A stretch of DNA of 64,000 nt, taken from the NCBI GenBank assembly GCA_030432595.1, contig JAUIGU010000013.1:1-64000 (forward strand), read 5' to 3'. Positions 5,436-18,806 of this stretch are shown here, piece after piece. Under the pieces are notes generated by a model, which saw nothing but the letters and a program-made list of their open reading frames with translations, did not search any database and was not told the origin of the DNA. Within the stretch, counting starts at the first letter, position 1. Each line of letters starts with the position of its first letter. Origin of the DNA: Phycisphaerae bacterium (lineage in GTDB: Bacteria; Planctomycetota; Phycisphaerae; Phycisphaerales; Phycisphaeraceae). Position numbers and translations under genes: made by a program.

Positions 5436-6530
5436 TCACGGCCCGACGAAGCGGTAGTCGCCCTTGTTTTCGTCGGCGATGATCTTCAGCACGGTCTCGC
5501 CGACGCGGTTTCGGAAGGCGAGGGTGTTGATGTGGACGCGTCGGCCGGGGTTGTGGCGGGTGATGGTTTCGGTGACGCCGACGTTGAAGCTGCCGTCGGA
5601 GAGCAGCCAGATCGTGTCGGGTCTGAGCCGGGTGAGCGCGGTGGTGAGCGCCTCGGTGGGGTCGGTACCACCGCCGGTGCTGACGGTGCGGACCCAGTCG
5701 ACGTAGCGCTCGATGTTCTTTGCGGTCGCGGGGACCAAACCCGGCGCGGGCATGGGTTCGGCGTCGCTGTCGTAGAAGATGACGTAGAACGATTCGTGCG
5801 GGCGCAGCGAGCGCAACGAGCGGATCAGCTCGAAGCGCGCGTCGGCGAACGCCCCGCCCTGCATGCTGCCGGACTTGTCGAGGATGAAGACGAACCGCGA
5901 GCCGTGCCCGGGCTGACCGAAGAAGCTGGCGAGCCCTTCGTGGCCGCCGCCGCGTCCGGCCGCGTCGCCGGTCGCGCCGGCCAGGGGCGTGGCCGTGGCG
6001 TCGGGCGTAGTAGCCGGTTGGCGCGGCACGTCGGCGTCGAGCGCGGACAAGTCGGTAGCGAAGCCGAGTTCGGCGGCGAGTGGTGAATCGGTCGAAGGTC
6101 GCGGCGTGGCGGCGGGTTCGGCGGTGGCTTCACGGGCCTCGGTGGTCGCATCGTCTTTCACGGCGCCGCGATCCGTGTCGTGACCCGCACGATCATCTTC
6201 CACCGGCGCGGGGTGGCCGCGCCCGCCGCGCTGTTCCGCACTGCCGGTGGCGTCCCCTGTGTTCGTGGTCCCGGGCCCGTCTTCGTGAGCGCCCAGACCG
6301 CCGCCGGTTCCGGGGCCGCCGCCGGTGTTCGCGTGTGCGGCACCCGCCTCATTCGAGATTGGCAGCGGCAGCCACAACCACAGCGAACTGAGCGCCAACA
6401 AAAACAGCAACAACGCCACCACCGGCGGCACCCAGCGATGACGGCCTTCCGGACGCTCCGCCGCGGCTTCGGGCACCGGGTCGGTCTGCGGCGAGAGGTC
6501 GTGAGGTTTTCGGACGCCCGGCGGATTCAT
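5436..6530 (-). CDS. membrane-anchored von Willebrand factor A domain protein
   Basis: Residues 33-53 form one transmembrane helix, preceded by a short cytoplasmic proline/charge-rich tail. A long low-complexity linker follows, with Gly, Ala, Thr and Glu, then a vWA domain over about 205-364. The metal-ion-dependent adhesion site is intact: D-K-S-G-S at 218-222, the TGGGTDP loop and the LLSDGSFN strand. vWA domains bind protein partners through a metal ion. It is transcribed divergently from the eight-gene GTPase cluster, and vWA partners are common in predicted NTPase-based conflict and co-translocation systems, so a functional link is plausible. The ATG at 6530 is chosen over a TTG at 6545; neither has a strong ribosome binding site. 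Confidence 0.88.
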   Translation of the reverse strand: MNPPGVRKPHDLSPQTDPVPEAAAERPEGRHRWVPPVVALLLFLLALSSLWLWLPLPISNEAGAAHANTGGGPGTGGGLGAHEDGPGTTNTGDATGSAEQRGGRGHPAPVEDDRAGHDTDRGAVKDDATTEAREATAEPAATPRPSTDSPLAAELGFATDLSALDADVPRQPATTPDATATPLAGATGDAAGRGGGHEGLASFFGQPGHGSRFVFILDKSGSMQGGAFADARFELIRSLRSLRPHESFYVIFYDSDAEPMPAPGLVPATAKNIERYVDWVRTVSTGGGTDPTEALTTALTRLRPDTIWLLSDGSFNVGVTETITRHNPGRRVHINTLAFRNRVGETVLKIIADENKGDYRFVGP

Positions 6531-6563
6531 GGGGTCGCGGATCAATGGGCTTTCGGGTTACCC

Positions 6564-6663: not shown

Positions 6664-8160
6664 ATGATCACTGACGCCGCGAAAGCCGAGCCGGGGGTGT
6701 CGCCCGGCGTCGATCCGCGGCGGCAGGCTGCGCCCGCCACGGACGCCGGCCCGACGACCGACTCATTATCGGAAGGCCCGTGTCCGCCCCAGTCGGCTCC
6801 CGACGACTCCGCCGTCCACCGCGTGGGCTGGACCGGGCCGGCCAAACGCCGCACGACCTGCCCGCACTGCTGGCAGCGGTTCCACCTGGGCGACGTGTTA
6901 TGGGTCGCGACGCATCCGGGCCTGCGCGGCGACCCCGTGGCCGGCGACGACGCGATGCGCCGCTTCCTGCCCACCAACTACAACGTGCACGGCGACGCGA
7001 TCGACGCCGGCGGCTCGGCGTGCCACGACCTGGCCTGCCCGCACTGCCGGCTGCCCGTGCCGCGGGCGCTGCTCGAAGCGCGGCAGCTCTACTTCTCACT
7101 CGTCGGCGTGCCGGCCAGCGGGAAGTCGTACCTCACCGCGGCGATGAGTTGGCGCCTGCGCGACCTGTTGCCCAACCGCTTCGTCTGGGGGTTCCAGGAC
7201 ATCGACGCCCAGGGCAACGCCGCCCTGATCGAGCACGAGCAGACCCTGTTCCTCCGCGACAAGCCCGACGAGCCCGTCAGCCTCGACAAGACCCAGATGC
7301 ACGGCTCGCACTACGAGCAGGTGCGCTTCGGCGATCAGCAGATCAGCCTGGCGCGGCCGTTCCAGTTCCTGCTCACGCCGCCGCGTCACCAAGCCCGGTC
7401 GCGCCCTGGCGAAACAGAAACGGAAAGCGAAACCCGATCGCGCGTGTTGAACTTCTACGACAACGCCGGCGAGCACTTCCTCCCCGGCAACGACAACGCG
7501 CTGACGCCCGGGACGCAGCACGTCGCGCGGGCCAACGCGCTGATGTTCCTGTTCGACCCGATGCAGGACGCCCGCTGCCGCGCCGCGCTGCAACCCGCCA
7601 GCAACGACCCGCAACTGGGCGACACGTTCGGGCACGCGTCCCGGCAGGACGCAATCCTCAACGAGATGGGCCGACGCATCCGCCGTTACGCGCACCTCGA
7701 CGCCACCGCGACGATCAAGCAGCCGCTGATCGTGCTGGTCAGCAAGGCCGACGCCTGGCTCGAGTTGGCCGGCCTGCACTGGGGCGACGAGCCCGAGCCG
7801 GTGCTGCAACAGCCCGACGGCACGTGGGCCGTGGACACCGCGCTGATCGAGCGCGTCTCGTCCGCGGTGCGCGGCTGGCTGCAGAAGGTGACGCCCGAGT
7901 TCGTGTCGCTGGCCGAAGGGATGCACGAGACGGTGCGCTATCTGCCGGTGTCGGCGCTGGGCGGCCCGCCCGAATCCGTCGGCCGTGAAGCGCGGTTGAT
8001 GGTGCGCCCCGCGCAGCTCGCGCCGCGGTGGGTGGCGGCACCGCTGCTGTACGCCCTGAGCAAGTGGTCGCGGCAGACGTTGCCCGACGAGGCCACCCCG
8101 CAACCGACGGAACCAAACGGACAAGACGAAACACCCGCCGCCCCGGAGGACGCGGACTGA
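6664..8160 (+). CDS. P-loop GTPase, double-GTPase (DO-GTPase2)-like, with zinc ribbon
   Basis: This is the first gene of an eight-gene overlapping cluster. The N-terminus is disordered. Two CPHC pairs (Cys 66/69 and 125/128) form a likely zinc ribbon. A GTPase-type P-loop domain follows, with Walker A GVPASGKS at 148-155, a switch-like D-N-A-G at 266-269, and S-K-A-D at 360-363, which matches the base-specificity NKxD motif. Conserved RFVWGFQD and QVRFGDQQISLARPFQFLL segments lie between. This order matches the DO-GTPase2 family as I remember it from predicted conflict systems. The last 40 residues are acidic and disordered. The start at 6664 is inferred because the upstream in-frame extension is proline-rich and without homologous character. 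The protein looks soluble and is probably the nucleotide-dependent switch of the system. Confidence 0.85.
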   Translation: MITDAAKAEPGVSPGVDPRRQAAPATDAGPTTDSLSEGPCPPQSAPDDSAVHRVGWTGPAKRRTTCPHCWQRFHLGDVLWVATHPGLRGDPVAGDDAMRRFLPTNYNVHGDAIDAGGSACHDLACPHCRLPVPRALLEARQLYFSLVGVPASGKSYLTAAMSWRLRDLLPNRFVWGFQDIDAQGNAALIEHEQTLFLRDKPDEPVSLDKTQMHGSHYEQVRFGDQQISLARPFQFLLTPPRHQARSRPGETETESETRSRVLNFYDNAGEHFLPGNDNALTPGTQHVARANALMFLFDPMQDARCRAALQPASNDPQLGDTFGHASRQDAILNEMGRRIRRYAHLDATATIKQPLIVLVSKADAWLELAGLHWGDEPEPVLQQPDGTWAVDTALIERVSSAVRGWLQKVTPEFVSLAEGMHETVRYLPVSALGGPPESVGREARLMVRPAQLAPRWVAAPLLYALSKWSRQTLPDEATPQPTEPNGQDETPAAPEDAD

Positions 8161-10634
8161 TGGCCTGGGAACTGGTCTACACCTCGGCGCCGCGCGGCCT
8201 GACGACCGGCTCGACCGGGTTCTGTACCGTCGCGCACAGTCAAGGCCTGCCCGCGTCGCTCCAGCCCCGCCTCGAAGCGCTCAGCGGCTACCGACCGCCC
8301 CGGCAAAAACCCGACGACGGCGCGATGCCCGTGCGATACAGCCACGTTTTGCTGAACCACGCGGGCCAGACGCTGTCCGTGCTGTCGCGCGTCGCGGCGG
8401 CGGGCGTGGACCACACCGGGCGCTCCAACAAACTCGCCGACCACCGCGTGCTGATGCCTCACGAACGCGCCGCCGCCGGCCCCGCGTGGGTCGCGCGCCA
8501 GCCAAACATCTTCCGTGAACACTGGCAACAAGAGCCGACGGTGTTGAACGCCTCGGCGTCAATGCCCGCGGGCGAACAAGAACCCGGCGTATGTTCCGTC
8601 TGGGCCGACGCCGCGGGGGATGCCGGGTGGGCGGGCGTCCTGGCGGATCTGTTTTTGCTGGATCCGTCGGCACCGGTCTACGTGGTCTACGACCCGGCGC
8701 GGCACGACGCGGCACGTCTGATCGACGAAGCCGTCGCGCTGCTGCCGGTGTCGCGCCGCTGGGACGTCACCTTCTCCACCTACTACACCGACCCGCTGGG
8801 CGAGGACGGCGTCGCGTGGCGATTCGTGATGGCGGGCACCCCCGCTGCCGGCGCCGCGCGGACCGCGAACGACCGCGGGCGCTGTATCGACCTGACGTGC
8901 TCTCTTGGTGAATCGCCTGACAGCGCGTATGTCTGCGCCGCGCGCACGGGCGAGCCGCCGAGTGTGCCGTACGAGTTGGCCGAGTCCGAGGATCAGCCGC
9001 GATCGGACGTGGAAGCCGCGACGACCGCCACGCCTGGGACCGCGGCCGGTGTCATCACGAACAAGTCCACCATTCCCACCACACGTTTGGCCAGAGAGTC
9101 CACTTCCACGCACGACCGAGACCCGAACGGGAAAGACCGCAACGACATCGATTTCAACGAACCGGCACGCACCGACACGGCCGCGTGGAAATGGGTCGCC
9201 GCCGCCGCCATCCCCGCGCTGCTGGTCGCGGGGGGTTTCTACGCGTGGTCGGGCGACACCGCGGACGCAGACGCCGGTCGGCACTCCGAACAAGACGCCG
9301 CCGAGGTCGCTCGACTCCGCCAACAGTTGTCCGAGTCGCAGCGCCGCGTCGCCACGCTTGAAAACCAGGTGCGCGCCCCCGCCACCGACAACGAAACAAC
9401 CGCACCAGGCGATGTCATCGACCGCGTCATCAAGCCGGAACATTCGCCGGCGGCGTCAACCAAGGAGTCACTCGGCCTCGCCGAAGCGCTAAGTGACGCT
9501 GAACCCTCGACAGAAGACGATTCCGAAACGGTGTTTTCGGAGGTTGATGTCGCGCCCCGATCGCCCGTCAAAGTCGCTGCCGACCTGCCCCGTGCCACGA
9601 CGGGCCCCGCAGGGTCCGCCAGCATGGGAACCGCCGCGCGCCTCGACGGTGCCGCCGGCTGGCTCTGGCAGCCCGACGATTTCGTCGCCCGCGGCGCGGC
9701 GCTCACCGTCACCCCGGCGTGGGACGAGGCCGACGCCGACCTGCGCTGGCGCACCGGGGCGGACGCGGCCGAACTGGTCTGCCGATCCGTGGACGCGCTG
9801 GGGACTCCGCGTGACGTGGTGCTCGGGCGTGTTTCCTTGTCTGACGAAGGCGTGCGTTGGTCCTGGACCGACGCCACGCTGCCCCGGTCGTGGGCCGGAC
9901 GGCGCGAGGCGCTGTGGTGGCACGCCGCGGCCACGACCTTTGTCGTTCACGATGCGCAGCAGCAAACCCTCGCCGAGATTCAGGGAATCGTGCCCGTCGA
10001 GGCGAGCGCGAACATCAACGCGCGTCCAACCGCCATCCCCTGGGCAAGCACCGCCGTGCCCGCCGCCCTGCGGATTGACGCGCCGCCGACCGGGTGGTCT
10101 GCCGAGTTGCGCCCCGACGGACGCCGGCTCGACCTGCGCGGCCCTGCCGGTTCCACGCTGCACCTCCGACTCACCGATGCGGATTCCCAGGTCAAGGTTG
10201 AAACGTCCTGGGCGCGTGACGCGGACGAATTGCGGACGTCCGCCGCAGAGTTGGAACGCCGCGCCCAGACGCTCGCCGGGTGGCTCGAACGCCACGCGGC
10301 GTTGAAAGAACAGCACGAAATCGCCGGCCGGAGCCTGCCCCGCAACGACGACCGCGAGGTCCTCCACACGTTCCGCTCCGACCCGAAGTTCTACGCCGTG
10401 TTTGAACGGTACGACCGGGCGCAAGACGAACTCGCAGCCCACGCGGACGAACAACCTGGCTTCGACGCCGCCGACGCCGCAACGGAACTCGACCAATTGC
10501 GTCAACGCGTCGCTGCGATGACGGGTCAAGCCCTAGAGATGCAAGGGTTCCCCGGAGCGCGCGTCGAAGTGATCGCATCACGGTCCGGCGCGGTGGCCGC
10601 GCACATCGCTATATCCCAGGAGGAACCGTCGTGA
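8160..10634 (+). CDS. GAP1-N2-like GTPase-associated transmembrane protein (824 aa)
   Basis: The start overlaps the GTPase stop by one base (TGATG). The N-terminus, LVYTSAPRGLTTGSTGFCTV, is the hallmark of GTPase-associated protein 1 (N-terminal domain type 2), known from operons with double-GTPases. The cytoplasmic region extends to about residue 342. One transmembrane helix (343-363, WVAAAAIPALLVAGGFYAW) then leads to an external coiled coil (about 376-405) and a beta-rich domain of about 200 residues. A helical region rich in Asp, Gln and Arg ends the protein. This layout suits a protein that senses the GTPase inside and contacts envelope partners outside. Its biochemical activity is unknown. 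The domain assignment is from memory and needs a profile search. Confidence 0.83.
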   Translation: MAWELVYTSAPRGLTTGSTGFCTVAHSQGLPASLQPRLEALSGYRPPRQKPDDGAMPVRYSHVLLNHAGQTLSVLSRVAAAGVDHTGRSNKLADHRVLMPHERAAAGPAWVARQPNIFREHWQQEPTVLNASASMPAGEQEPGVCSVWADAAGDAGWAGVLADLFLLDPSAPVYVVYDPARHDAARLIDEAVALLPVSRRWDVTFSTYYTDPLGEDGVAWRFVMAGTPAAGAARTANDRGRCIDLTCSLGESPDSAYVCAARTGEPPSVPYELAESEDQPRSDVEAATTATPGTAAGVITNKSTIPTTRLARESTSTHDRDPNGKDRNDIDFNEPARTDTAAWKWVAAAAIPALLVAGGFYAWSGDTADADAGRHSEQDAAEVARLRQQLSESQRRVATLENQVRAPATDNETTAPGDVIDRVIKPEHSPAASTKESLGLAEALSDAEPSTEDDSETVFSEVDVAPRSPVKVAADLPRATTGPAGSASMGTAARLDGAAGWLWQPDDFVARGAALTVTPAWDEADADLRWRTGADAAELVCRSVDALGTPRDVVLGRVSLSDEGVRWSWTDATLPRSWAGRREALWWHAAATTFVVHDAQQQTLAEIQGIVPVEASANINARPTAIPWASTAVPAALRIDAPPTGWSAELRPDGRRLDLRGPAGSTLHLRLTDADSQVKVETSWARDADELRTSAAELERRAQTLAGWLERHAALKEQHEIAGRSLPRNDDREVLHTFRSDPKFYAVFERYDRAQDELAAHADEQPGFDAADAATELDQLRQRVAAMTGQALEMQGFPGARVEVIASRSGAVAAHIAISQEEPS

Positions 10635-11848
10635 ACCTGCCGCGTATCACATCGCGTGGATTCAGGTTGTCGGTTCTGCCGGCCGTGTGGTTCTCTGCAC
10701 TTCCTTTGTGCGTTGCGGCGCAGAGTGACCCCGTGTTGGAAGACTTCGAAACCCGCTACGTCGAAGCGGTGAAACAGATCGAAGCCCAACTCCTCCAGGC
10801 CGGGCAGCAGATCGAAGACGAGCAACAGGCGTTGCTGGACAAGCTCGGAAAGACGCACGACGAATTGCAGGCCGAACGCCGGCGGGCGGACGCGCTCGAG
10901 GCCCGGCTCCGTGCGCTCAACGGTGAAGCGTCGGCGGTGACCGACATCGACCCCGGCGTGACGCCCACCGACCAACAAGCGGCGCATTGGCTCGCATTCC
11001 CCGAGCGTTCGGTGAACGCGCTGGGTCTCATGGAAGCCCAGGACATCCGCATCGGGACGGTTCCGCTGGGCACCGACACGGTAGCCATCGTCTGGCCGAC
11101 CGATGTCGCACTCCCGGACGGCGCGGTGCGGCCGAGCACCGCCACCGAGGGCAATCGGACGCACGTCCAGGTGGCGACGACGTTGGGTCCGCCCCGCACG
11201 CTTGCCACACTCCGCGTCGAGGGCGAAGCCCTGTTCTGGACCTGGCACGCGCTCTCACCGGGCGACGCTTCCGACGCGCTCGCGTACCTCGACACCGCGC
11301 TGCCGCGCTGCGGGTTCGATGCGCAACGCGCCGACGTGACCCTCGCGTCGCTCCAGTTCCGTCCGCTCGACCTGCTCGTCGGCCAACGCGCCGACACCCA
11401 GTCGGGGGTGGTGCTTCGGCCGGGCATTGGCCGGTTCCGTCTCGGCGCCGAGGTCGCGACCGCGGGCTGGGTGCTCTTGGCGGATCGTCCCGATGAAGTC
11501 GGCTGGGTGTCGCCGGCGTTGTCGTGGCAGGTCGCCCTCGCGCCCGACGGTGAATCGGTGACGGTGCGACGCGGGCCCGGCCTGGAACGCCGCACCCAAG
11601 ACCTGGAACGCCAGCGGCGTCAGTGGGAACAGGACCTCGCCCGCCGTGACGCGGACGCCGTCGGCGTCGACACCGCTCGGGTTCAGGCGGAGCTTGAACG
11701 CATCGACGAAGCGCAACAGAAACTCGAAAGCGCCCGGCAGACATTGTCGACGCAGGCGGGCCCGCTCGGGTCGCCGGTCGTCCGTCTGCTCACGCCCGAC
11801 GGGCGGATCGTTCTGGCGCGGCTCACCCTCGCGACGGAGGGCCGGTGA
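10631..11848 (+). CDS. exported coiled-coil protein, third gene of the GTPase cluster
   Basis: The GTG start overlaps the previous stop (GTGA) and is preceded by AGGAGGAACC, a near-ideal ribosome binding site. A signal peptide spans about residues 1-30 (…PLCVAAQS). Residues 35-100 form an acidic/basic heptad coiled coil (AVKQIEAQLLQAGQQIEDEQ). The middle is beta-rich, with repeated 'TVALPDG', 'LATLRVEGEALFWTWHAL' and 'PLDLLVGQRADT' strands. It resembles the external half of the preceding GAP1-like protein: both contain a LFWTWH/VRWSWTD-type segment followed by coiled coil. A second coiled coil closes the protein. It is probably a periplasmic partner of the neighbouring transmembrane proteins. 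Confidence 0.8.
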   Translation: MNLPRITSRGFRLSVLPAVWFSALPLCVAAQSDPVLEDFETRYVEAVKQIEAQLLQAGQQIEDEQQALLDKLGKTHDELQAERRRADALEARLRALNGEASAVTDIDPGVTPTDQQAAHWLAFPERSVNALGLMEAQDIRIGTVPLGTDTVAIVWPTDVALPDGAVRPSTATEGNRTHVQVATTLGPPRTLATLRVEGEALFWTWHALSPGDASDALAYLDTALPRCGFDAQRADVTLASLQFRPLDLLVGQRADTQSGVVLRPGIGRFRLGAEVATAGWVLLADRPDEVGWVSPALSWQVALAPDGESVTVRRGPGLERRTQDLERQRRQWEQDLARRDADAVGVDTARVQAELERIDEAQQKLESARQTLSTQAGPLGSPVVRLLTPDGRIVLARLTLATEGR

Positions 11849-14800
11849 CCATGCAGGACGCGCGCAGCCTCACCCAACGCATCGACGCGCTGCTCACCGC
11901 CGACGCGCTTCCCGACGCCGACGAAGCCGCGTCGTTGGCCGCGGCGTACGCGCGGCTGTCCCGGCAGGCGCACGACCGGCTGACGCGCTGCCAGGAACTG
12001 CTCGCGCGCGGCCTGCGTTCCGAGGCGGTCCAGGAAGCCGAGACCGAACCGACGTTGCTGGTGCTGGTGTCGTCGCTGGAGCTTCAGCGCTTCCACGCGT
12101 GGCAGGACTTCTGCCGCCGCCACGACCTGCCCGCGCCGTGCGAGGTCCGGCCGGACGTCGTCGCCGAGTTAAACCGCGCCTACGCGGCCGAGCAGTTGGT
12201 CTCGCCGCTGTTGCGCGAGTACCGCCTGCGCTGCGTGGTGCGGGCGCCGCTGACCGCACGGATCGCGGCCCTGCGCGGCGTGGCCGGCGTCGACCGCGGC
12301 AACCGCGCCTGGGCCGACGCGCTGATCGAACTCGAACGGCAGCGCCTCACCGAGATCCCCGACGCCGTCCAGTCGGCCATGGGCGATGTCGAAGCGCTGC
12401 AGAACCTGCAGCGCGAACTGATCGACGACCGGCGCAAGGTGCCGGCTCCGCCGCGCCTGTTGGACACCGTCGCCGAGGCGTTGCAGGACTCCCGGGTGCG
12501 TCACGCCCAGCGACAACTCGAGGCGATGCTCCCGGTGCTCGGCGAGGCGTACAGCGCGATGGATTACCCGGCCTGCCGGGCGCTGCTGGACAACTGGACG
12601 CAGACGCTCAAGGCCGTCGGGCGCACCGCGTTGCAGGTCCCCGAGCACCTGCGCGAAGCGGTCGAACCCGCGCTGCGGTGGGTAGAACAGCAGGCGGTGC
12701 GCCAGGAAAACGAGGCTGCGTTCCATCGCGCCTGCCGCGCCCTGACCGACGCTGTGGAAGACGACGAAGGGGTGGACCCGCTCGCCGCGGCGCTCGCCGA
12801 GGCGGAGAGCTTCGAGCAACCGCTGCCCGGATCGCTCGGCGAGGATGCGCGGGCCGAACTCGCGCGCCGCCGCGCCGTGCAGACCCGCCGGCGGCGGACG
12901 CGGCAGGCGGCGGTTGCCGTGGTGGTCCTCGGCCTGTGCGGAGCCGTGGCGTGGACGATCCATCGGGCGCAGGTCGAGCGCGATGTGGATCAGCGCCTCG
13001 CCCAGGTGCGCACCGCACTCGACGACCACGACGTGGACGCCGCAGGCTCGCTCTGGCTCACCTTCGCCCAAGCGCGCTCCGACCACACCGACACCCCACG
13101 CGCCCGCGACGTTTATGACCGCCTCGACGCGGCGAAGCAGGAAGAAGAGCGGCGCGCCGACGCCTTCGCGCAACACGCCGCGACCCTTGCCGAGTCCGCG
13201 GACGAAGAACTGACGCAAGATGAACTCGCGTTGCTGTCCGAATTGGCGCGGCTTGCGGACGACCACCAACAGGTCGAGGCCTTGCGTGACCGATACCGGG
13301 CGCACCGGGCGAAGGTGCAACAAGCCAACGACCGGGCAGCGCTCGAGGTGGCGGCAACCCTCCGGACCCGTTTGCGCGGGATCGGCAGCGACGCGTTGGA
13401 CCGTGAGCCTCAAGCCGTGCTCGCCACCGCCGCCGACGCCGCGGAACAACTGCGGGGGTTGCAGCAGCGCGACGGCATCACGCCGACGACGCAGCGGGTG
13501 ATCGCGTCGGTGACCCGGGAGGCGGTCGGCCTGCGGGAAGGCGCGCAGGCCGTGCTCGACCAACGGGAGCTTCGTCGCCAACGCGCCGAGGCGGAGACGC
13601 AGCTTGCGCGTTACACGTCCCGGCCCGCGCTGCTCGCGGGGCAACTCGCCGACTATGCCAAGCGCTTCCCGGATGCGCCGCTGACCCCCGCGTTTTCCCA
13701 CGCCGCGTCGGATGTTCCGGCGTGGGAAGCGGTGGAGGCCTGGCTGGCCGTCCGCGAGAAGTGGCGGGGCGATCCCGCGCCCGCGACGTTGCAACAGGCG
13801 GCCCAACGGCTGCGCGACCTTGAGGCGTACACGCAAAGCCACGACGCATCGCCCATGGCGCCGGCACTTTCCGACTACCGGAGCTACTGGGGCGCGGCGA
13901 TCCTCGCTTCCGCCGACGACGGGCCGTGGCGCGGCCGGCTGCCGGAACTGCTGCGTGCCCCGATCTTCCGGGACCTCGGCGTGGCCGAAACCACGGACGG
14001 GCGGCGCTTCTACATCGTCGGCGACGGCAACCGCCGCGAGACCTCGCTGGGCACCGCCATCGACGTCGTGCTCTCGCCCGACACCACGCAAACGACCACG
14101 AAAACATTCGCGCCCGGGCTGCTCGGCCCCGTCGAGCCCAGCCCGCAGTCCGAACTCGCCGCCGAGTTGCTCGCGCGGGTCTCGACGTACGAACTCGACC
14201 GTTGGCACACCTTCCCGGTGGACGTCGTCGAGACGGTGCTCGATGCCGACGCCGTCGATCCCGTGCTGCGCGGCGTACTCGTCGAGCTCTTGTTGAACAA
14301 CCTCGAAGAAGCCACGGGTCGGCTCCACCCCGACCTGGCGGCGCTGCGCGACCGCATCGCGGTGCACGGCGAGCAGGCGGTGAACTGGCTGAACCCCGAC
14401 GACATGCCCGCACGGACGACGCGCCGCTTCATGGAGAAGGTGCTCGCCGAGCCGCGCGACCCGGACCGCTGGCGCGCGGCGCTGGCGGTCGAGCGTGCGT
14501 CGGTGTCGCGCGGGGTGAGCCCGCACGTCCTTCAGCGCGCGGTGCTGATGCCGGATATTGACGGACGGCCGATCGCGCTGACGCACACGGGCAGCCCGCC
14601 GAAAGACGCAGAGGTCTGGGCCGTCGCCGCGGGGGAGGCGTCCGAGGCGTCGCCGCGCTTCCTGCTTGTGGGGCGCGTCAGCAAAGACGGTTTGAAACTC
14701 GAACCCTGGGCGAAGGCGCAGCTGCCGTTCGGTTCCATGCTCTGGCTCCTCGAAGCCACGCCCGACGAATTCCCCGGGTTTCACGAAGACCCCGAATCCT

Positions 14801-14850
14801 CTGATGACCGGGCGGAGCTCGTCGTCAACGCCCCGGGGAACCAACCATGA
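11845..14850 (+). CDS. large single-pass coiled-coil protein (1001 aa) of the GTPase cluster
   Basis: The GTG start overlaps the upstream stop by four bases; an ATG two codons further in is also possible. Residues 1-345 are helical and Arg/Glu/Leu rich, with no enzyme motif (for example LTQRIDALLTADALPDADEA). One transmembrane helix sits at about 352-372 (AVAVVVLGLCGAVAWTIH). The remaining 630 residues are external: a long alternating helical region rich in Ala, Gln and Arg up to about 640, then a folded mixed alpha/beta domain. This inside-helical, one-span, outside-coiled-coil plan suggests a structural spine or scaffold crossing the periplasm. No family is recognised. Confidence 0.78.
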   Translation: MTMQDARSLTQRIDALLTADALPDADEAASLAAAYARLSRQAHDRLTRCQELLARGLRSEAVQEAETEPTLLVLVSSLELQRFHAWQDFCRRHDLPAPCEVRPDVVAELNRAYAAEQLVSPLLREYRLRCVVRAPLTARIAALRGVAGVDRGNRAWADALIELERQRLTEIPDAVQSAMGDVEALQNLQRELIDDRRKVPAPPRLLDTVAEALQDSRVRHAQRQLEAMLPVLGEAYSAMDYPACRALLDNWTQTLKAVGRTALQVPEHLREAVEPALRWVEQQAVRQENEAAFHRACRALTDAVEDDEGVDPLAAALAEAESFEQPLPGSLGEDARAELARRRAVQTRRRRTRQAAVAVVVLGLCGAVAWTIHRAQVERDVDQRLAQVRTALDDHDVDAAGSLWLTFAQARSDHTDTPRARDVYDRLDAAKQEEERRADAFAQHAATLAESADEELTQDELALLSELARLADDHQQVEALRDRYRAHRAKVQQANDRAALEVAATLRTRLRGIGSDALDREPQAVLATAADAAEQLRGLQQRDGITPTTQRVIASVTREAVGLREGAQAVLDQRELRRQRAEAETQLARYTSRPALLAGQLADYAKRFPDAPLTPAFSHAASDVPAWEAVEAWLAVREKWRGDPAPATLQQAAQRLRDLEAYTQSHDASPMAPALSDYRSYWGAAILASADDGPWRGRLPELLRAPIFRDLGVAETTDGRRFYIVGDGNRRETSLGTAIDVVLSPDTTQTTTKTFAPGLLGPVEPSPQSELAAELLARVSTYELDRWHTFPVDVVETVLDADAVDPVLRGVLVELLLNNLEEATGRLHPDLAALRDRIAVHGEQAVNWLNPDDMPARTTRRFMEKVLAEPRDPDRWRAALAVERASVSRGVSPHVLQRAVLMPDIDGRPIALTHTGSPPKDAEVWAVAAGEASEASPRFLLVGRVSKDGLKLEPWAKAQLPFGSMLWLLEATPDEFPGFHEDPESSDDRAELVVNAPGNQP

Positions 14851-16031
14851 ACGCCACGGCGCCCGAACACGCCGCGGACACCGCCGCGTCCAGTGATCGC
14901 ACCGCCGGCGACGCGTGGTTTGTCCGCCTGGGTGCCGAGCGGCACGGCCCGATGCCGATCGCCCAGGTCCGGCAGCGTTTCGAAGCCGGGCTGTATTCGC
15001 GGTGGCACGAAGGATCAAGCGACGGTCGGTCGTGGACTCCGATCCGTGGTTTGCTGAACGACCTCGAAGACGCTTTCCCCGAGGACCTGACACCCGCCGC
15101 GGTCGCGCCCGGCGAACAGACCGGCACGGGCGCTTTCGATTGGTCGCAACTCGTCTCCGAGACGGACCACAGAGCAAGCCCGATTCAGCAAACCAAGCCG
15201 GCCGCATCTTGGCACACCGCCCGCGTGGCCGAGGCATCGATGGGCGGGTTGTTGCTGGCGCTGGGCCTGCTGCCGATCGTGGCCGACGGGTCGCGGGCCA
15301 CCGGATGGTGGGGCTGGCCGTCGGGTCAGACGGGGTGGCCGTTCGCGTTGATGTCCGGGCTGTGGATGACGGTCGGTCTCGTCATGTTGATGTTCAGCGT
15401 CACGCCGAAGTTCAACGCCAAGGCGTATGCACCGCGCGGTACGGCGTGGTTTGCGGCGATCTGGTTGACGGGATGGCTTGCCGCGGGCGGCGGTCCGGCG
15501 TTGCTGCTCGTGGCGCCTGCGTGGCTGGTGGTTCTGGCGGGTTATGAAGCGCACGTGCGCTTCCCTCTGCACCGCGCTGCGCTCTGGACGACCGGCGGAC
15601 TGTTGCTGGTTTTGAGCACCACCGTTACGGGGTTCATGGAGTCGCTGAGCGCGACCGTGGCGACGTTCTGGTGGGCCGTGGGACTGACCGTGATCGGCTA
15701 CGGGTTCTGTATCCATCCCTCCCGCACAGCATCACGGAAGTTCAAATTGTTGGTCGGCGCGGTCGGCGTGCTTGCCCTGTTGTTCGCGACAGGCATCACC
15801 GCACACCAAGGCGCACAGAGCCTTCGCCCGACGGAACCGGTGCAGGCCGGGGCACAGTATGTCCGCGTCGCCGTGTTCGTCACCGCGATGCTCGGACTGG
15901 TCGGGATGCGCTGGGTGAACCGGGCGAACATTCAAAACCTGCGAAAGTCCAACGGCGTGATCGTCACGCACGCGGACCCGGAGATGACCGCATCCATCTC
16001 CACCGTTCCCTATGCGGAGACCCCGCGTTGA
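14847..16031 (+). CDS. GYF-domain polytopic membrane protein of the GTPase cluster
   Basis: The ATG overlaps the previous stop (ATGA). Residues 22-72 match a GYF_2 (DUF4339-type) domain: W-F-V-R ... G-P-M-P-I-A-Q-V ... G-L-Y-S-R-W ... W-T-P. Bacterial GYF_2 domains sit on the cytoplasmic face of membrane proteins and probably bind proline-rich peptides; the GTPase tail and the vWA linker are proline-rich. About eight transmembrane helices follow (roughly 127-150, 165-190, 200-240 as two, 250-300 as two, 305-325, 340-362). The C-terminal tail is short and polar. There is no transporter signature. It is a plausible membrane platform that recruits the cytoplasmic parts. Confidence 0.8.
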   Translation: MNATAPEHAADTAASSDRTAGDAWFVRLGAERHGPMPIAQVRQRFEAGLYSRWHEGSSDGRSWTPIRGLLNDLEDAFPEDLTPAAVAPGEQTGTGAFDWSQLVSETDHRASPIQQTKPAASWHTARVAEASMGGLLLALGLLPIVADGSRATGWWGWPSGQTGWPFALMSGLWMTVGLVMLMFSVTPKFNAKAYAPRGTAWFAAIWLTGWLAAGGGPALLLVAPAWLVVLAGYEAHVRFPLHRAALWTTGGLLLVLSTTVTGFMESLSATVATFWWAVGLTVIGYGFCIHPSRTASRKFKLLVGAVGVLALLFATGITAHQGAQSLRPTEPVQAGAQYVRVAVFVTAMLGLVGMRWVNRANIQNLRKSNGVIVTHADPEMTASISTVPYAETPR

Positions 16032-16948
16032 CTACGACCGCCACCGACCCGCCGGAGTCCTTCGGCACCGACACCGTTTCGGCTACCGACACCGCACCAC
16101 CGCCCGTGGACGACGCCCGGCTGCACTGGCGGCGCGGCGACCTGGAGTGCCGGATCGGTCTGACCGGCGCGCCCAACACGTCGGTGGCGACGGCGGTCTG
16201 GCTGGTCGTGGCGGTGGCGTTGACCATCGCGTTCTACCTGGTGTTGACTGTGTTGCCCGAGTCGCGCGGCGTGGCGATGTTCACACAGCGCGGCCCGGTG
16301 CCGTATGTCGTGGTGACGCTCACGGCCTGGGCGCTGCTCATGCTCGCGGTCAAGCTGCACAAAATCGCCCACCAGGCCAGGGCGCTGCGATTCGGTGACA
16401 TCGTCCCCGCCGACCCGGACTTCGTGCTCTCGCCCGGCACGGTGGCGCGCGTGATGGAACGGTTAAAGGCGCGCTGCGTCGACCCCGTCAACTTCATCCT
16501 GTTCCGTCGGGTCGAGTTTGCGCTCTCGAACCTCCGCAACATCGGGCGGATCAGCGACGTGGACGAGGTGCTCAACTCCCGCGCCGACGCCGACGCCGAC
16601 GCCGCGGAATCGAGCTACACGTTGTTGCGTGGCCTGGTGTGGGCGATCCCGGTGTTGGGGTTCATCGGCACGGTGCAGGGGTTGTCGGCGTCGCTGGGCG
16701 CGTTCGGTGCGGTGATCCAGGATACGGCCGACTTCGAGCAGCTCAAGCCGGCGCTGCGCGAGGTGACCGGCGGGCTGGCAACGGCGTTCGACACGACGCT
16801 GGTCGCGCTGGTCGCGGCGCTGGGGGTGCAGATGCTGCTGACCGTGGTGCGCAAGCGCGAGGAAGATTTGCTCGACGCGTGCGGCGACTACTGCCGGAAG
16901 CACGTGGTCGGTCGGCTGCGGCTCAGCCCGTTCGAGGCGGGCGCGTGA
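16028..16948 (+). CDS. MotA/TolQ/ExbB-like proton-channel subunit
   Basis: The start is probably TTG at 16028, overlapping the previous stop (TTGA) like all other junctions in the cluster. Four transmembrane helices lie at about 57-77, 93-110, 201-218 and 254-275, with a cytoplasmic loop of about 90 residues between the second and third: the MotA/TolQ/ExbB plan. Helix three contains IPVLGFIGTVQGLSASLGAF and helix four contains LATAFDTTLVALVAALGVQM. These are the two signature helices that line the ion path, including the conserved threonines. In flagella, Tol, Ton and Zorya systems such proteins pentamerise around a dimer of single-pass partners, and two candidate partners follow directly. 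Confidence 0.9.
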   Translation: MTTTATDPPESFGTDTVSATDTAPPPVDDARLHWRRGDLECRIGLTGAPNTSVATAVWLVVAVALTIAFYLVLTVLPESRGVAMFTQRGPVPYVVVTLTAWALLMLAVKLHKIAHQARALRFGDIVPADPDFVLSPGTVARVMERLKARCVDPVNFILFRRVEFALSNLRNIGRISDVDEVLNSRADADADAAESSYTLLRGLVWAIPVLGFIGTVQGLSASLGAFGAVIQDTADFEQLKPALREVTGGLATAFDTTLVALVAALGVQMLLTVVRKREEDLLDACGDYCRKHVVGRLRLSPFEAGA

Positions 16949-17763
16949 GCGGGCGTCGCCGCCGAGGCCGGCGCGGCGGGGCGGGCGGGCCGTTCTCGCT
17001 GTTCGCGTTCCAGGACATCATGTGTGCGGTCACGGGCGTGATGATCGTCACGACCTTGCTGCTGGTGATGGATTTGCTGACACGCACGGTCACCGCCGCG
17101 CCGACCCCGACGATGTCGACGACCGAAGCAACACCGTTCGACCCGGCCGAACTCGAGGCGTTGCGGGCTCAGCGCGATCGGCTGCGCAGCGCGATCGAAG
17201 AATCCTCAAACAACGATGATACTTTGATGGTGATTGCGGGTTCCGTTTTGCAACAGCTCACCGAACGCCTGGACCGCGCCCGCGACCAGCGGCTGGACGC
17301 CGAGGCGCAGTCGGCAGCGTTGGCCGCCACGGCCGAGGCGCTGCGTACGCGTGGCGAAACCCTCGACGAGCGCGCCCGGCAGCTGGCCGAACAACTCGCG
17401 GAGGTCGAGACACGGGTTGCCGCTCGGCTGAACACGCAACGCGTGACTCGGCTGGGCGGCGAAGCTTCGGGGAAAGAGACGTGGTGGGTGCGGCTTTCCG
17501 ACGGGCCGTGGCGGGCGGGCAGGCTCGTGAGCAGCGACGTGGCAACCGGAACCGAAAACGCTGGGGCGGTTGACCTCGGCGGGACCGCGGATGATGTATT
17601 GCGTTGGGTTGAAACCTTAGACCCCGCAGGCGATGCGTTGGTTTTGCTGGTCGAACCGAGTGGCGTCGAGGCGTTTCATGGTTTGCAGGGGGGGCTGCGG
17701 GCGCACGGGTACGACGTTGGTTGGGACCTGGTGCTGCCTGAAAATCCGGAGGCCGATCCGTGA
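16945..17763 (+). CDS. MotB/TolR/ExbD-like partner protein 1
   Basis: The GTG start overlaps the previous stop (GTGA). A basic N-terminus (Arg and Gly, residues 2-16) precedes one transmembrane helix at about 17-45. Asp24 sits at its cytoplasmic end in FAFQDIMCAVTGVMIV, the position of the proton-accepting aspartate in MotB and ExbD. A coiled coil follows (about 65-160), then a small folded domain (about 165-272) with a conserved-looking ETWWVRLSDGPWR strand. There is no OmpA-type peptidoglycan-binding domain, unlike MotB or ZorB. The C-terminal domain shares its general layout with the next gene (a 'LDP..D.L.L.V.P' strand), so the two may form a heterodimer. Confidence 0.82.
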   Translation: MSGRRRRGRRGGAGGPFSLFAFQDIMCAVTGVMIVTTLLLVMDLLTRTVTAAPTPTMSTTEATPFDPAELEALRAQRDRLRSAIEESSNNDDTLMVIAGSVLQQLTERLDRARDQRLDAEAQSAALAATAEALRTRGETLDERARQLAEQLAEVETRVAARLNTQRVTRLGGEASGKETWWVRLSDGPWRAGRLVSSDVATGTENAGAVDLGGTADDVLRWVETLDPAGDALVLLVEPSGVEAFHGLQGGLRAHGYDVGWDLVLPENPEADP

Positions 17764-18629
17764 GTCGGTGCCGATTTCAGGAAGACACGCAGGACGCGCT
17801 CGAGTTGTTTCTCGACGCGATCAGCAACGTGTTCGGCGGGATTGTGTTCATCGCGCTGGCGGTTGTGATCCTTTTGCAGTTCTCGACCGCCAACCCGAGC
17901 GATGCGATCGGTGACGTCACGCAACGTCAGCAAGCCCCCGCAGATTCGGACGATCTGCGCAGACAGATCGCCGTTCTGCGTGCGCTGTTGGAAGACGCCG
18001 AACAGAACGACCGCGTCGATACAGGTCGGTACCAAGCCGCGCTCGCCGAAGTCGAGCTGGCCGAAGCGGAACTCGCCCGACTCCACCGCGTCCAAGAAGA
18101 GCAACAGCAAGATGTGCTAGAGGCCCGCGCCGCGATTGACGCCGCGGAACAGCACGTCGCCGCGTTGGAGCAGCAACTGCTCGACGCGCGAACCGCGTTG
18201 GAGAACGCGCCGCGAATGTCCCCGGATCGCCAGCGCGTCGGACGTTTCCAGACCACGGCCAAACGCGAGGTGCCCGTCATGCTTAAGGCCGAGCATTTGG
18301 TCGAGGTGCTGCGTTTCCCGTCGGGCGGCGGTGATCCGACGGTCAACGCGGACGACCTCCGCCTCGACACCACGGCCAACCGGGTGCGCCCCCGGCCCGG
18401 CGCGGGCACGCGGATCGGCGACGGCGCCGCGGGCGACCAGGCGTTGATTGGCTGGCTGGCCGGTCTCGACCCGCGGCGCGACTATCTCTCGGTTGCCGTC
18501 TGGCCGGACGCGTTCGGCCCCGCGCTGCGCCTGCGCGACCACGCGCTGGACATGGGGTTTGCCTTCACCCTCACTCCCGTCGCGGACGACCGCGGCGTCC
18601 CCTTCAAGGCGACGTCCGGCGTCCAGTGA
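17760..18629 (+). CDS. MotB/TolR/ExbD-like partner protein 2
   Basis: The GTG start overlaps the previous stop (GTGA). One transmembrane helix at about 18-40 (FLDAISNVFGGIVFIALAVV) carries Asp19 at its cytoplasmic end, again the place of the MotB/ExbD proton-accepting aspartate. A long glutamate/alanine-rich coiled coil spans about 60-155. A C-terminal domain (about 175-289) contains GWLAGLDPRRDYLSVAVWPD, comparable to the TLDPAGDALVLLVEPSG strand of the preceding protein. Two different single-pass partners for one channel protein is unusual: MotB, TolR and ExbD normally form homodimers. It is the last gene of the cluster; no clear terminator follows before the convergent tRNA. Confidence 0.82.
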   Translation: MSRCRFQEDTQDALELFLDAISNVFGGIVFIALAVVILLQFSTANPSDAIGDVTQRQQAPADSDDLRRQIAVLRALLEDAEQNDRVDTGRYQAALAEVELAEAELARLHRVQEEQQQDVLEARAAIDAAEQHVAALEQQLLDARTALENAPRMSPDRQRVGRFQTTAKREVPVMLKAEHLVEVLRFPSGGGDPTVNADDLRLDTTANRVRPRPGAGTRIGDGAAGDQALIGWLAGLDPRRDYLSVAVWPDAFGPALRLRDHALDMGFAFTLTPVADDRGVPFKATSGVQ

Positions 18630-18732: not shown

Positions 18733-18806
18733 TCGGGGTGACATGATTTGAACATGCGACCTCTTCGTCCCGAACGAAGCGCTCTACCAAGCTGAGCTAC
18801 ACCCCG
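18733..18806 (-). tRNA. tRNA-Pro, anticodon CGG
   Basis: The minus strand folds as a complete 74-nt cloverleaf. The acceptor stem is CGGGGTG/CACCCCG with discriminator A, and the D arm GCTC-AGCTTGGTA-GAGC. The anticodon arm CTTCG-TTCGGGA-CGAAG reads anticodon CGG with G at position 37. The variable loop has five bases and the T arm is GCATG-TTCAAAT-CATGT. The CCA end is not encoded. G37 after a CGG anticodon is typical of proline tRNAs. Confidence 0.95.

Follow-up and report, generated by a model that had tools for sequence, protein, structure and literature searches.

Systems that pair GAP1-N2 proteins with DO-GTPases have been placed among predicted conflict systems (Kaur et al. 2020, eLife, PMC7159879), and their planctomycete representatives, with paired-GYF membrane proteins, already appear in the same paper, as far as the portions of it and of the other articles cited here that we draw on extend. 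Described A/B-type motors include the 5:2 motors TolQ-TolR, ExbB-ExbD and MotA-MotB, the Zorya pair ZorA/ZorB, the ExbB-ExbD1-ExbD2 systems and Myxococcus AglR-AglQ-AglS, for which heterodimer formation between AglQ and AglS is given as unknown in PMC9389320. Here we describe a gene cluster at positions 6664-18629 of a 64,000-nucleotide stretch of Phycisphaerae bacterium contig JAUIGU010000013.1 (the whole stretch being the window), in which a GTPase-GAP1-GYF core is joined to a MotA/TolQ/ExbB-type channel and two B subunits. The core is known, so an initial annotation that had proposed an undescribed system went too far; it is the linkage to a motor and the presence of two non-equivalent B types that appear to be new. 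The motor is absent from the main text of PMC7159879, which makes no mention of MotA, TolQ, ExbB, TolR, a proton channel or flagella, and the main text of a 2025 survey of MotAB relatives (PMC12505986), which notes that sequence searches often miss B homologues, makes no mention of a GTPase. We consider it rather probable that the cluster encodes a single trans-envelope, ion-driven machine with a B1:B2 axle under a GTP switch.

The eight genes (g1 to g8) are plus-strand open reading frames that overlap by 1, 4, 4, 4, 4, 4 and 4 bases, as the initial annotation had described, and its GTPase, GAP1, GYF and channel identities are supported by Pfam matches on the window proteins or on their relatives. 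In common with published GAP1-N2 DO-GTPase systems, the cluster has an upstream zinc-ribbon GTPase, GAP1-N2 and GAP1-M domains, a conserved Glu after a DxxG-like motif and a GYF membrane protein; unlike them, it includes a VWA gene and g4 as well as a MotA-type channel with a pair of B subunits. The first protein, g1 (6664..8160), appears to be a cytosolic P-loop GTPase of the DO-GTPase2 type, and its zinc-type cysteines (Cys 66, 69, 125 and 128), G1 motif (G148, G153, K154), G3 motif (DNAGE; D266, N267, G269, E270) and G4 motif (xKxD; K361, D363) are invariant in 33/33 relatives. Motifs and gene order thus agree in placing a TRAFAC-type zinc-ribbon GTPase, whose Walker B region has the conserved Glu, upstream of GAP1. 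In g2 (8160..10634), the GAP1-N2 (2e-27, 96.2 bits) and GAP1-M (3e-16, 59.7 bits) matches both exceed the Pfam cut-off of 24, and these putatively cytosolic domains are followed by a linker, a span at about 346-364 and a periplasmic part; hydropathy also reveals a second, weaker hydrophobic segment inside the GAP1 domain. The fifth protein, g5 (14847..16031), combines an N-terminal GYF domain with about 6-7 membrane spans. Because the window copies of g1 (DO-GTPase2, E 0.09, 12.9 bits, under Pfam's 27) and g5 (GYF_2, E 0.024) score below Pfam cut-offs, both calls rest on relatives, in which DO-GTPase2 matches 27/33 and GYF_2 25/26 at E up to 0.01; the latter, together with the predicted spans, gives g5 the GYF and membrane regions of the planctomycete GAP1-N2 variant.

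The A subunit, g6 (16028..16948, TTG start), carries a MotA_ExbB domain (2e-9, 37.8 bits versus a cut-off of 22.9) and channel residues T215, T256 and T257 that are invariant in 10/10 sequences and common to the genome's own TolQ/ExbB-like paralogue (L004). The domain match and channel Thr residues are as in the 5:2 motors, and so are the single-span B proteins with a membrane Asp, whose genes lie directly downstream; in contrast to those motors, the cluster has B subunits of two different types, each with a long coiled coil, and no detectable ExbD match. Hydropathy gives four spans in g6, about seven in g5 and one clear span each in g2, g4, g7 and g8, with topology inferred from charge. The channel is MotA-like, as in Zorya, and has a weak PADLOC match to ZorA (E 3e-4), but at 306 aa it ends about 30 residues past its last span and lacks the long ZorA tail, and neither an OmpA-like B domain nor ZorC, ZorD or ZorE was matched in the nine window proteins by Pfam or PADLOC. 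We rejected membership of Zorya because neither the length nor the domains fit and the partners are missing. The ExbB-ExbD1-ExbD2 systems likewise have one ExbB and two ExbD genes, but they are TonB-linked uptake systems with no GTPase.

We examined linkage with a profile of ten channel proteins, which gave 457 confirmed loci in contigs of 84,980 genomes; we retained the 80 best of these, a choice that under-samples distant members. Among the 38 channel loci with more than 9 kb upstream, g1 was found in 35, g2 in 36, g4 in 35 and g5 in 30, with g1, g2 and g4 together in 35; the exceptions were L086, L092 and L103, and in L092 (Neorhodopirellula pilleata Pla100) nothing was recognized beyond g5, the channel and the B genes. 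Downstream, 53 of 56 loci with more than 3 kb of sequence carry two B genes, and 51 carry both B types by motif. All six main components are held by 47 loci, of which 43 were used for gene order and 42 for trees: the components share one strand in 43/43, they follow the order g1-g2-g4-g6-B1-B2 in 38/43, and their pairwise tree distances correlate at 0.62-0.85, compared with a permutation maximum of 0.38 (500 permutations each). Across 392 Planctomycetota genomes, GAP1-N2 was found in 35 and a channel above 300 bits in 19, with both in 16/19. When we started instead from 40 GAP1-N2 loci including the window, 25 had the GTPase/GAP1 pair of the cluster at the thresholds applied, and of these 13 had the motor, 5 had g4 without the motor, 1 lacked g4 and 6 were ended by the contig. 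The earlier claim of a single unit is therefore borne out, and the outcome that would have spoken against it, genes rarely found together or first two proteins of unrelated families, did not materialize, given 35/38 linkage, DO-GTPase2 in 27/33 relatives and GAP1 above cut-off. Its further proposal of one joint machine agrees with the linkage but overlooked that the motor is modular, since five core loci have no channel. Apparently tandem copies of cluster parts, with two B1-B2 pairs, were observed in L144 and L148.

The two B subunits differ in a consistent way. B1 (g7, 16945..17763) begins its span with F-x-F-Q-D and carries membrane Asp24 (codon 17014..17016), and B2 (g8, 17760..18629) has a span of the form L-x-L-L-D-T-x-C-N-x-F-G-G with Asp19 (codon 17814..17816); both continue into a coiled coil and a periplasmic domain, small and alpha/beta in B1, and the two are homologous by C-terminal profile (hhalign probability 96.8%, E 3e-10; spans 78%). 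In the GTPase-linked clade, comprising 98 loci by channel score, the Asp is present in every B1 found (87/87) and every B2 found (82/82). Of 51 sister-family loci, by contrast, 39 have an FPFL-type B1 with no Asp at that position (L162-L165, L167, L169, L170, L202-L216, L218-L220, L222, L223, L226, L228-L234 and L240-L243), 8 have no B1 found and 4 have an Asp-bearing B1 of another type. B2 was found in 26 of the 39, each time with its Asp (26/26), and was not found in the other 13. The fragment L086 was left out of these counts, and because the B2 search seeds required Asp (B1 seeds allowed Asp, Ser or Ala), the 82/82 and 26/26 may hide missed Asp-less B2 proteins. The sister-family channels are longer on the whole, often with a coiled-coil tail; none of nine 20-kb sister loci has g1, g2 or g4, and another forty 7-kb loci, which hold little upstream sequence, were not used for this absence. 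A fully supported branch of the channel tree separates the GTPase-linked clade from the rest, the groups having been set by bit score and the split being partly one of definition, and on this tree the B1 state must change three times.

Since sister-family B1 lacks the Asp and B2 keeps it, we infer that the two B types are non-equivalent and not interchangeable, and they probably pair as a B1:B2 heterodimeric axle. No Pfam ExbD, TolR or MotB match was found for either, and ExbD homology was unsupported by profile in both Pfam and hhalign. The B1 model (pLDDT 81.6) combines a span with a long coiled coil and a small alpha/beta domain and is likely TolR-like, with Escherichia coli TolR (5by4) ranked first by structure at Z 8.0 and ExbD (8pek) tenth at Z 6.9; the likeness is unproven because unrelated folds reach Z 7.7 against 8.0 for TolR.

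The remaining genes fall around this conserved set. The coiled-coil protein g3 (10631..11848), with an N-terminal hydrophobic segment, has a sequence relative in only one genome, of the same genus (L013), and a positional counterpart in L065, so it is not a general member; the idea that it duplicates the periplasmic part of GAP1 was not supported (hhalign 1.6%). In contrast, g4 (11845..14850; 1001 aa) is conserved across relatives and mainly helical, with a 44-sequence AlphaFold2 model at pLDDT 85.5 and pTM 0.47. Its one span, at about 355-373, follows an Arg-rich stretch, suggesting a cytosolic N-terminal part and about 630 aa in the periplasm. Fold searches on g4 returned nothing beyond weak matches to helical repeats (best Foldseek E 9e-4, TM 0.09; best VIA Z 8.9 at 18 A root-mean-square deviation), and FNIII repeats had no Pfam match in the nine window proteins, a weak miss as PMC7159879 calls these repeats rapidly evolving.

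The set of eight was thus sound as a unit but wrong in counting g3 as a conserved member, and it overlooked a ninth gene. This VWA-domain gene (5436..6545, minus strand; Pfam VWA_3 3e-10), divergent from the operon and encoding one N-terminal transmembrane span, belongs with the cluster: a profile search found a VWA-type gene adjoining it in 8/8 genomes examined of the window's order (the window, L013, L014, L015, L016, L017, L065 and L160, out of nine order members known to have a GAP1-N2 or channel orthologue; G002 was left out). Overall, 13/47 complete loci have one nearby, in one case about 5 kb off on the other strand. In L095 and L118 it lies inside the operon, between channel and B1, and the L095 copy has its own GYF domain.

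The membrane proteins show a modular pattern. In 26 relatives of g5, residues G34, P35 and S57 are invariant, and the C-terminal part varies (Trypsin_2 in 2, PrsW in 1, DUF805 in 2, TM2 in 1 and DUF4190 in 6). N-terminal GYF domains also occur on several other operon membrane proteins, at L095 10843-13550, L099 10844-12715 and L085 10898-12232; these are of trypsin type, VWA type and squalene-cyclase fold, and a further one matches nothing else in Pfam. This pattern would fit GYF as a docking tag for exchangeable envelope modules. As candidate GYF ligands, PPG/PPP motifs in GAP1 linkers (31 versus 17.6 expected, in 18/43 loci) were unconvincing. Related one-span proteins with a common C-terminal region are inserted between channel and B1 in L132 (10842-11801), L124 (1735-2694) and L146 (10858-11766), and the L132 protein had no Pfam match.

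Carriers are planctomycetes and a few other bacteria, with cultured examples in Victivallis vadensis DSM 14823 (L156), Neorhodopirellula pilleata Pla100 and Botrimarina colliarenosi Pla108; the Desulfamplus and Nitrospiraceae matches are metagenome bins. Presence is patchy, with the channel in 19/392 genomes of the phylum and 2/41 of the family, and a third family genome, G001, has g1, g2 and part of g4 on a short cluster contig. A tRNA-Pro (cgg) gene at 18733-18806 on the minus strand directly follows the last cluster gene. G001, which is of the same genus, retains the right-flank E2-DHO-NfeD block but has neither the tRNA nor any cluster gene in the 16 kb fetched, so the cluster site differs between the two species or has been rearranged. 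Among plasmids, matches were confined to four records; all were distant and partial, with coverage short of 80%. Two cyanobacterial plasmids, L202 (8854-11433, Anabaena cylindrica) and L203 (8539-11139, Microcystis aeruginosa), carry a channel with an Asp-less B1-like and an Asp-bearing B2-like protein; L202 adjoins type III-B CRISPR and viperin genes, and L203 adjoins SLATT, DNA methylase and DUF559 genes. This set looks like a candidate defence cassette.

In the machine that we favor, the parts, their genetic linkage, joint inheritance and two non-equivalent B types are established at the level of sequence comparison, and the working would be as follows. At the inner membrane, the zinc-ribbon GTPase and membrane-anchored GAP1 would together act as a cytosolic switch; GAP1 would also extend into the periplasm, as would g4 and the VWA protein, all three as sensors or couplers; and GYF domains would dock exchangeable membrane modules. 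Ion conduction by the channel pentamer and the B1:B2 axle would be timed by the GTP state, and the conducting motor would turn or pull the axle, delivering force or depolarizing the membrane. Given such a machine, a response to envelope attack or damage, that is, defence, is quite plausible as its purpose, envelope upkeep or transport is a reasonable though less favored possibility, and motility or predation is improbable. We lean toward defence because the GAP1-N2 class was placed among conflict systems (PMC7159879, which upholds the initial annotation in tracing GTPase/GAP1 pairs to predicted conflict neighbourhoods), because the g5 C-terminal parts vary and presence is patchy, and because two cyanobacterial plasmids carry distant relatives of the channel within defence islands. 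Among open-licence papers on GAP1-N2/GAP1-M, double-GTPases and DO-GTPases, only PMC7159879 and PMC11237479, where a DO-GTPase is named next to phage-shock genes, were relevant, and no open-licence paper was found that connects planctomycetes with TolQ, a GTPase and gliding.

Several results weigh against this picture. Shared species history alone could explain the tree agreement. The core occurs without a motor in L045, L051, L053, L059 and L063, despite 2.7-8.2 kb of room downstream, and L158 and L159 have g4, channel, B1 and B2 without a recognized GTPase or GAP1 in 20 kb, possibly a GTPase-free version of the machine. Comparison of B1 and B2 with ExbD gave hhalign probabilities below 3%, lower than a reversed control for the B1 membrane segment (8.7%). 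The match of the B1 model to TolR is tied with RNase-H/actin-like folds at Z 7.7, and Foldseek returned nothing at E up to 0.001, with TolR absent among the 50 matches listed, which were mostly ribosomal uS11 and integrase-like folds. PxG-hydrophobic GYF ligands are not enriched in GAP1 linkers (1 observed versus 2.5 expected). No carriage was found in 50,697 phage records. Finally, flanks of 40 loci showed no clear enrichment of defence genes by PADLOC: 36 models, mostly PD-T4-6 among those listed, matched among 100 of 105 flank proteins with 1-2 members each, compared with 1/85 in a control of 85 proteins taken from 136 listed entries, some listed twice.

One alternative is that the cluster is a GTP-regulated relative of Tol-Pal or Ton that transports lipids, lipoproteins or solutes across the envelope and has no defence role. 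The A and B parts are nearest TolQ and TolR among solved structures (TolQ best for g6 at E 0.077; TolR at the top for B1, tied), and the large periplasmic parts of g2 and g4, with the VWA protein alongside, would suit it; its patchy presence is unlike that of a housekeeping machine, however, and the core is found without the motor, so we regard this as somewhat unlikely. The cluster might otherwise consist of two independent adjoining operons, in which a GAP1-N2 conflict system merely lies next to an ion channel unrelated to it. The five motor-free core loci point that way, as do the sister channels, given that GAP1-N2 is missing from 10/22 genomes with a 160-245 bit channel, and the placement of the motor block before the core in L130, L139 and L143. 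Against it stand the overlapping reading frames, the 35/38 co-occurrence, the correlated trees and the position of the linked-loci channels on one side of the fully supported branch (in groups made partly by definition), which together leave mere adjacency very doubtful.

A surface motility or predation machine like Myxococcus Agl-Glt, in which a GTPase directs a motor of one TolQ-like and two TolR-like proteins, draws on the closest described arrangement of one A and two B subunits, AglR with AglQ and AglS (PMC3169522, PMC9389320). The likeness to AglRQS is one of arrangement only: the AglRQS genes lie in separate clusters, the cluster GTPase is of a different type, and no Glt outer-membrane set was seen. 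Agl-Glt uses MglA as its switch and includes the zinc-ribbon/GYF protein GltJ. By the Pfam matches of its relatives, g1 is instead of DO-GTPase type, and neither a roadblock match, such as an MglB-type partner would give, in the nine window proteins nor outer-membrane Glt proteins among the cluster proteins were found. The cluster is also present in Victivallis vadensis DSM 14823, which we take to be non-motile. We therefore hold a motility role to be highly unlikely.

Returning to the machine with a B1:B2 axle, a stronger version is possible, which we hold only tentatively: an obligate axle (A5:B1:B2), GTP-gated and run by the DO-GTPase/GAP1 switch as an envelope defence machine, would be one member of a wider, unrecognized class of two-B motors in which one subunit can dispense with its Asp, the B1 of the linked clade having kept or regained it. 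For the family, these results tie an untried, predicted GTPase conflict class to an energy-converting motor and so provide a concrete working part to assay. They bear on the question of homodimer or heterodimer formation among B paralogues such as AglQ and AglS (PMC9389320), and the two B types side by side (51/56 loci), one of which lacks the Asp in sister families, offer a natural experiment on the number of ion-carrying sites that a motor needs.

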